64,000 nt of DNA from Myrmaecium sp. VS I D KN 1 (taxonomy: Eukaryota > Ascomycota > Dothideomycetes > Valsariales > Valsariaceae), in contig JADQAV010000027.1 in assembly GCA_019775845.1 (NCBI GenBank), positions 62,001-126,000 on the forward strand, read 5' to 3'. A program made the translations under genes and the position numbers. The notes under the pieces are model-generated. The model made no database searches and was not told the origin of the DNA. It was given only the letters and a program-made list of their open reading frames with translations. Below, one piece after another: positions 16,040 through 16,268 of this stretch. How positions within the stretch are numbered: position 1 is the first letter of the stretch; each line of letters opens with the position of its first letter.

Positions 16040-16252
16040 TCAACCTGATCGGGTGGTCAGAGGGTCATGGTCATTGGGGGAAAGGGGGAAGCATGGTCCT
16101 TTCGCAGGTATTATCCTGGAGACCGGCCACCGCGTTGAGGCATTGGTGGTCTTATGGTCCGCGATCAAGTTGTGACGGTATAATCTCAGCCGCCTTCCTC
16201 CCCCCGGCCTCCTGAAAGAGGTCCGGGAAAAGGAAGGACAGCACCCGTCCAT
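16040..16252 (-). other. Upstream ORF inside the THI4 riboswitch intron
   Basis: A 70-codon ORF starts at the ATG at 16252, just inside the intron donor, and stops at 16040, ahead of the THI4 start at 16011. A second ORF of seven codons starts at ATG 16094 in the 3' strand of the aptamer. Both would be translated only from intron-retaining or alternatively spliced RNA, which fits the known uORF-mediated block in fungal thiamine genes. The peptide itself has no recognisable features. Confidence 0.55.
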
Positions 16253-16268
16253 GCTATACAGTATTTAC
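16045..16268 (-). other. 5'UTR intron of THI4 that contains the riboswitch
   Basis: On the minus strand a GTAAAT donor at 16268 and an ATCAG acceptor ending at 16045, with a CTGAC branch-like site at 16060-16056, define a 224-nt intron that ends 33 nt before the THI4 ATG. It carries the TPP aptamer and two ATGs. If retained or spliced differently, these would place upstream ORFs ahead of THI4. Donor and acceptor are read from sequence; use in vivo is inferred from the known fungal arrangement. Confidence 0.7.
16090..16205 (-). promoter_or_regulatory. TPP (thiamine pyrophosphate) riboswitch aptamer
   Basis: On the minus strand the sequence GGCTGAGATTATACCG (CTGAGA at 16189-16184) is the conserved pyrimidine-binding part. 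The block CAGGATAATACCTGCG (about 16118-16103) followed by AAAGGA is the conserved pyrophosphate-side hairpin. Between them ACTTGATC is conserved, followed by an insert of about 45 nt that can fold on itself (CCACC with GGTGG, GGACC with GGTCTCC). A purine-rich 5' flank (GGGGGGAGGAAG) can pair with CTTCCCCC on the 3' side to close P1. Position in the 5'UTR intron of THI4 is the known fungal setting, in which TPP binding changes splice-site choice. Confidence 0.93.

Follow-up and report, generated by a model that had tools for sequence, protein, structure and literature searches.

Introduction

In fungi, it is already established that TPP controls the splicing of THI4. The closest described systems are the THI4 riboswitches of Neurospora crassa (NCU06110) and many Ascomycota, which act by Type I leader-intron splicing according to the accessible part of Mukherjee et al. 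(2018; PMC5882874). For the NMT1 riboswitch of Neurospora crassa (Cheah et al., 2007), extracts of PMC5882874, PMC2258182 and PMC11900860 describe two donors, an upstream open reading frame (uORF) between them and a P4–P5 region complementary to the proximal donor region. Pairing of P4–P5 with the proximal donor is the known switching contact in the excerpts of PMC2258182 and PMC5882874. Fungal TPP aptamers usually have an extended P3 (PMC5882874 and PMC11683625, both in excerpt), and those with an extended P3 escape detection by the Rfam model RF00059 (PMC11683625, in excerpt). The G–G separation in J4/5 of fungal aptamers is conserved at 18 bases, as stated in the available passages of PMC5882874. 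According to the excerpted text of PMC2258182, genuine riboswitch matches can contain insertions in unusual places, and new sites of insertion are marked in the models of that paper.

Here we describe a candidate TPP riboswitch in the THI4 leader of Myrmaecium sp., located in a stretch of 64,000 nucleotides that was analysed as a whole (the window). It resembles the fungal Type I THI4 riboswitches, as they appear in the extract of PMC5882874, in its leader-intron aptamer, its core motifs, its long P3 and the splice sites and uORFs of the leader, but differs from them by 45 nt between J4/5 and P5, with a G–G separation of 63 instead of 18. Compared with the Neurospora crassa NMT1 riboswitch of the partly available sources, the layout appears similar, with a putative distal donor and a complementarity to the donor that is short and of weak statistical standing. 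The insertion is the sole new element of the finding.

Results

A TPP aptamer in the leader intron of THI4

THI4 (thiamine thiazole synthase) is encoded on the minus strand at positions 14955–16011. Its exons, joined across a single intron of 79 nt (15317–15239), give a product of 325 amino acids. Both coding pieces match Pfam Thi4 (2e-85 and 4.6e-19), and the top PDB match of the product is CyPBP37 (3jsk, E 1.2e-90), a Neurospora crassa protein according to the available text of PMC11900860. On the plus strand, a 393-codon open frame (15034–16215) runs antisense to THI4 and is most likely an effect of coding-strand composition.

With permissive Rfam settings on positions 15900–16700, the whole TPP model (RF00059, model positions 1–105) was matched at 16258–16080 on the minus strand with 32.3 bits (E 2.3e-4). 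This score does not reach the gathering score of 54.3 bits, which is why TPP is absent from the default Rfam scan of the whole window. The covariance-model search that the first-pass annotation had suggested as a check thus had a divided outcome, a full-length match under permissive settings and a missed cut-off. In the default scan the sole match at gathering score within the window is a U2 spliceosomal RNA gene, which is full length and lies on the minus strand at 52454–52258 (118.5 bits).

Over the 25.7-Mb genome the E value of the THI4 aptamer is 0.0017, the weakest of four TPP matches. The other three were found in the NMT1 leader (56.9 bits), at a locus designated L002 (42.4 bits) and in the leader of a purine-cytosine permease gene of the NCS1 type (PF02133; 39.6 bits; L003 1401–1660). 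The L002 aptamer (1501–1594) is located in an apparent intron, and a GT site lies at about 1915. Open coding-like stretches lie beside it, to which Pfam and PDB searches gave no name; at a guess, L002 might belong to the published urea-transporter group, with which an intronic position would agree. We did not take the low score at THI4 as an exclusion, because of the genome-wide E value, the two long insertions within the match and the failure of RF00059 to find extended-P3 aptamers that is reported in the excerpt of PMC11683625.

All core motifs, CUGAGA, the GAU of J4/5, the AUAAU loop of P5 and GCG, are intact in the THI4 aptamer. As read on the minus strand, P1 is formed by GCAUGG (16249–16254) and CCAUGC (16091–16096), and fold prediction places a long, extended P3 stem at 16189–16242. 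The Rfam alignment and a motif scan locate CUGAGA, the pyrimidine-binding motif, at 16184–16189. The P4 5′ strand with J4/5 (CUUGAU) was assigned to 16164–16169 from the Rfam alignment. The P5 hairpin CAGG-AUAAUA-CCUG, followed by CG and the P4 3′ strand AAAG, was assigned to 16099–16118 from the alignment together with the aptamer comparison. The order of CTGAGA (from 16189) and GATAATACCTGCG (to 16103) that had been noted earlier was confirmed on the minus strand, and a single loose motif scan, run on both strands, located this combination at one place in the window.

The stretch 16258–16095 folds better than its shuffles (0/200 as good, z −3.8), a value dominated by the long P3. By eye, P5 of the four aptamers of this genome reads CAGG/CCUG (THI4), CUGG/CCAG (NMT1 and NCS1) and CAAG/CUUG (L002); these two-sided changes indicate, within the limits of four sequences, that P5 pairing is kept in all of them. 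Likewise by eye, the outer P2 pair of THI4 shows a two-sided difference from that of other aptamers of the genome and is still paired, and P1 is paired in THI4. The Rfam match, the Pfam Thi4 context and the other TPP aptamers of the genome bear out the proposal of a TPP riboswitch in the THI4 leader intron. From its sequence, assignment of this feature to the TPP riboswitch family is right; it is a candidate riboswitch with predicted TPP binding.

Splice sites and upstream open reading frames of the THI4 leader

The splice signals, read from the sequence, place the aptamer in an intron of the 5′ leader whose acceptor lies just before the coding exon. The GTAAAT donor (16268–16263) and the ATCAG acceptor (ending at 16045) of the first-pass annotation are both present. 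The donor begins ten bases before the aptamer match, and we read it as the proximal donor. From the aptamer to the THI4 ATG the acceptor is the lone AG, and it is accompanied by a candidate branch point, CTGAC (16060–16056). Further upstream, GTAATT (16459–16454) is a candidate distal donor, chosen because splicing from there to 16045 clears all upstream ATGs. As a donor, GTAATT looks weaker than GTAAAT by the donor consensus.

A TATA-like box on the minus strand (16562–16557) suggests a transcription start near 16530. The leader has nine upstream ATGs from 16560 to the THI4 start: five are intronic, and four precede the GTAAAT donor. The latter open a uORF of 27 codons (16436–16353) with a nested 1-codon ATG at 16358, and a uORF of 21 codons (16337–16272), which contains a nested 2-codon ATG at 16280 and stops just before the GTAAAT donor. 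The two uORFs described earlier do exist, the ATG at 16252 opening 70 codons to 16040 and the ATG at 16094 opening 7 codons to 16071, but the count was incomplete. Moreover, the role given to these two ATGs was probably misassigned. Both sit in the P1 arms and would count only in transcripts from which the intron has not been removed.

Six leader forms were modelled for their upstream ATGs with the assumed start at 16530. Splicing from 16459 to 16045 leaves none and is unique among the six in this respect. One upstream ATG is left by splicing from 16380 to 16045, four are left by splicing from 16268 to 16045 (the 27-codon and 21-codon uORFs and the two tiny uORFs, all from exon 1), and all nine are left by intron retention. 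Alternatively, 16459–16398 could be a separate small intron in the upstream part of the leader; its removal together with 16268–16045 leaves three upstream ATGs. In this genome the leaders of NMT1 and NCS1 are also readable as a succession of distal donor, uORF, proximal donor and aptamer. For NMT1, one extra ATG stays in every leader form with the assumed start.

An insertion of 45 nt between J4/5 and P5

The insertion lies between the GAU of J4/5 and P5, at 16163–16119 on the minus strand, and is exactly 45 nt long. In the other three aptamers of the genome the G–G separation is 18, as read by eye. The first-pass annotation had described an extra stem of about 45 nt at this place. The insertion is real, but its reading as a stem is weak, since the insertion folds no better than shuffled sequence: for the stretch 16164–16115 (50 nt), 84 of 200 dinucleotide shuffles folded as well (z −0.24), and the 45 nt alone did not stand out from mononucleotide shuffles (z −0.85). 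In the minimum-energy fold, CGCGG of the insertion pairs with CCUGCG of P5. Enforcing P4 and P5 costs 3.7 kcal/mol relative to this fold, an amount that ligand binding might pay.

We also considered where the 45 nt might come from. A dispersed repeat was rejected, as a genome search with a query of 71 bases matched its own place alone. A duplicate of the flanks or the surrounding intron was rejected as well (131/500 shuffles aligned as well). By eye, a small intron can be dismissed, as there is no GT at the start and no AG at the end. Fungal aptamer patterns gave 0 matches in each of three scans of a viral contig collection. In the titles and abstract openings of the literature we found no paper on an insertion between J4/5 and P5; the figures or supplements of PMC2258182 may show the site.

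Complementarity between P4–P5 and donor regions

The pairing of P4–P5 with donor regions differs considerably among the four loci. At THI4, CAGGUA at the GTAAAT donor is complementary to UACCUG of P5 over 6 bp, a helix that 105 of 1000 shuffles equalled. The best helix over the whole THI4 upstream leader is a 9-bp match of TATTATCCT (16315–16307) to the P5 loop, away from any donor; it was set aside as a switching contact (118/1000 shuffles as good). Unremarkable, too, was a 9-nt pairing of the acceptor with the P4 5′ strand (GATCAGGTT with AACTTGATC; 169/1000). In the NCS1 leader, TCTGGATCAAG is located just before a GTATCT donor and forms an 11-bp complement of P4–P5 that ends at the donor (31/1000 shuffles as good). 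At L002, TGCAAGTATTATT lies over the GT site at about 1915 and is complementary to the P5 loop and 3′ strand over 13 nt (12/500 shuffles as good). At NMT1, the best helix lies elsewhere than at the donor; shuffles were as good in 576/1000 cases near the aptamer and in 859/1000 over the whole stretch.

Altogether, 35 GT contexts were scored for pairing in 42 rows, and all p values given here are uncorrected for these 42 rows. Values of 0.075 or lower were obtained for four rows of L002 (0.002, 0.004, 0.006 and 0.04), two of NCS1 (0.006 and 0.072) and one of NMT1 (0.042). The corresponding THI4 rows are GTATAG (0.02, a site not used), GTGCTG (0.06, inside the aptamer) and GTAAAT (0.064). Two further GT sites of L002 pair about as well as the donor cited above. 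According to these values, the pairing at L002 is not confined to a single donor, and GTAAAT is outranked by other rows of THI4. These results weaken the evidence from donor pairing. The Type I model, as far as it is set out in the excerpt of PMC5882874, fits the layout of the locus; the pairing at THI4 is tentative, given the spread from 13 bp at L002 and 11 bp at NCS1 to a weak 6 bp at THI4 and a non-significant result at NMT1.

Bacterial aptamers with insertions at the same point

A gapped pattern run over prokaryote genomes matched at least 119 stretches. Most of the 119 matches listed are ordinary aptamers preceded by a CTGAT that occurs there by chance, and five of them are true J4/5 insertions by eye (L006, L080, L087, L104 and L118). 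A script label for insertions overlooked L080; of the 12 rows that it flagged, eight are spaced normally or almost normally. The five loci yielded six RF00059 matches, two of them at L080, with 36.1 to 48.7 bits, all below the cut-off. Downstream genes are thiC (L006), two thi4 genes (L080), a YuaJ thiamine transporter gene (L087) and thiW with thiD (L104). L118 is near a contig end and has no downstream frame; every downstream gene read at the other loci is a thiamine gene. The L080 locus, from an Omnitrophota metagenome-assembled genome, has two neighbouring thi4 genes, each with its own aptamer (4342–4497 and 6911–7058) and a different J4/5 insertion.

In a genome sample 11 of 398 matched, with 6 true insertions by eye, and in a second sample 4 of 285 matched, with 2 (L146 and L149; the L149 insertion extends beyond what the pattern captures). 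Of these eight places, two were already known, L142 being the L104 aptamer and L146 the second L080 aptamer. All bacterial counts are lower bounds, as they come from exact patterns read by eye. By eye, an inserted hairpin is likewise present in L131, a second aptamer from the L104 genome. In L135 and L136, from two genomes, the inserted hairpins look similar by eye, with a GTTGA stem and different loops, which hints that the stem is kept by selection.

Bacterial aptamers with insertions between J4/5 and P5 (L006, L080 twice, L087, L104, L118, L131, L135, L136, L140, L141, L145 and L149) share the insertion point of THI4. Nine of the ten inserts that were folded are clear hairpins (z −2.1 to −5.6), the exception being the 15-nt insert of L087, whereas the THI4 insert (z −0.85) has no clear hairpin. 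Since some aptamers that stand beside thiamine genes have inserts there, for the most part hairpins, the J4/5–P5 site can take insertions.

Discussion

We propose that the THI4 leader intron contains a TPP riboswitch that would control the choice of the 5′ splice site and that tolerates the insertion, a reading to which we assign a probability of roughly 0.6. When TPP is scarce, part of P4–P5 would base-pair with the proximal donor GTAAAT (16268) or its vicinity, masking the donor. The spliceosome would then take the distal donor, for which GTAATT (16459) is the best candidate, together with the acceptor at 16045, and removal of all upstream ATGs would allow THI4 to be made. When TPP is plentiful, its binding would close P1 to P5 and free the proximal donor. 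Splicing from 16268, or no splicing, would leave uORFs in the mRNA and lower the translation of THI4. The 45-nt insertion is most likely an extra loop or arm that would leave the binding pocket able to form.

The first-pass annotation had favoured a single intron, 16268–16045, whose splicing would turn THI4 on and whose retention would block it by means of the uORFs in the aptamer. One donor close beside the aptamer, one acceptor and the 70-codon uORF of the retained RNA agree with this view, and the title of an Aspergillus oryzae thiA paper, as it appears in a reference list, states that expression requires riboswitch-like intron splicing. However, with a start near 16530 the spliced form keeps four upstream ATGs unless a later start or a second intron upstream eliminates them, and the additional intron 16459–16398 would still leave three. 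The two-donor layout also fits the leaders of NMT1 and NCS1 in this genome. We therefore regard a single intron as unlikely. Chance resemblance without any riboswitch, for which the score below the cut-off could be cited, is hardly credible in view of a genome-wide E value of 0.0017 for a match that lies at THI4, in a genome with further matches at NMT1 and the NCS1 permease.

Other explanations concern the insertion itself. It might have broken or weakened the aptamer, leaving THI4 of this species with a poor response to TPP or none. This would be in line with a G–G spacing of 63 against the constant 18 of fungi in the available text of PMC5882874, with folding no better than that of shuffles and with the competing partner that the insertion offers to the P5 3′ strand. 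On the other hand, the core motifs and the pairing of P1, P2 and P5 are kept beside the insertion, and bacterial aptamers next to thiamine genes have insertions at the corresponding position, so a damaged aptamer appears improbable to us. A working role of the insertion is also conceivable: CGCGG would pair with CCUGCG of the P5 3′ strand in the TPP-free state and act as an internal competitor beside the pyrophosphate pocket that tunes the TPP threshold. We consider such a role quite doubtful. An assembly or sequencing error, which a single assembly invites, is very improbable, as the 45 nt are of complex sequence, match their own place in the genome alone, are no detectable copy of their flanks (131/500 shuffles) and are placed exactly between two structural elements.

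Under the preferred reading of a splice-site-controlling riboswitch with a tolerated insertion, what the THI4 leader adds is a large insertion in a fungal aptamer, within a region described as among the most conserved, together with bacterial examples at the same point. Should the insertion be a working part after all, J4/5 would be a general insertion point at which bacterial and fungal lineages add regulatory arms. If the insertion-bearing aptamers bind TPP, the ligand pocket would be more tolerant than consensus models say. In that case, searches that assume a compact P4–P5 would under-count TPP riboswitches, as the THI4 aptamer and the six bacterial matches from five loci all lie below the Rfam cut-off.
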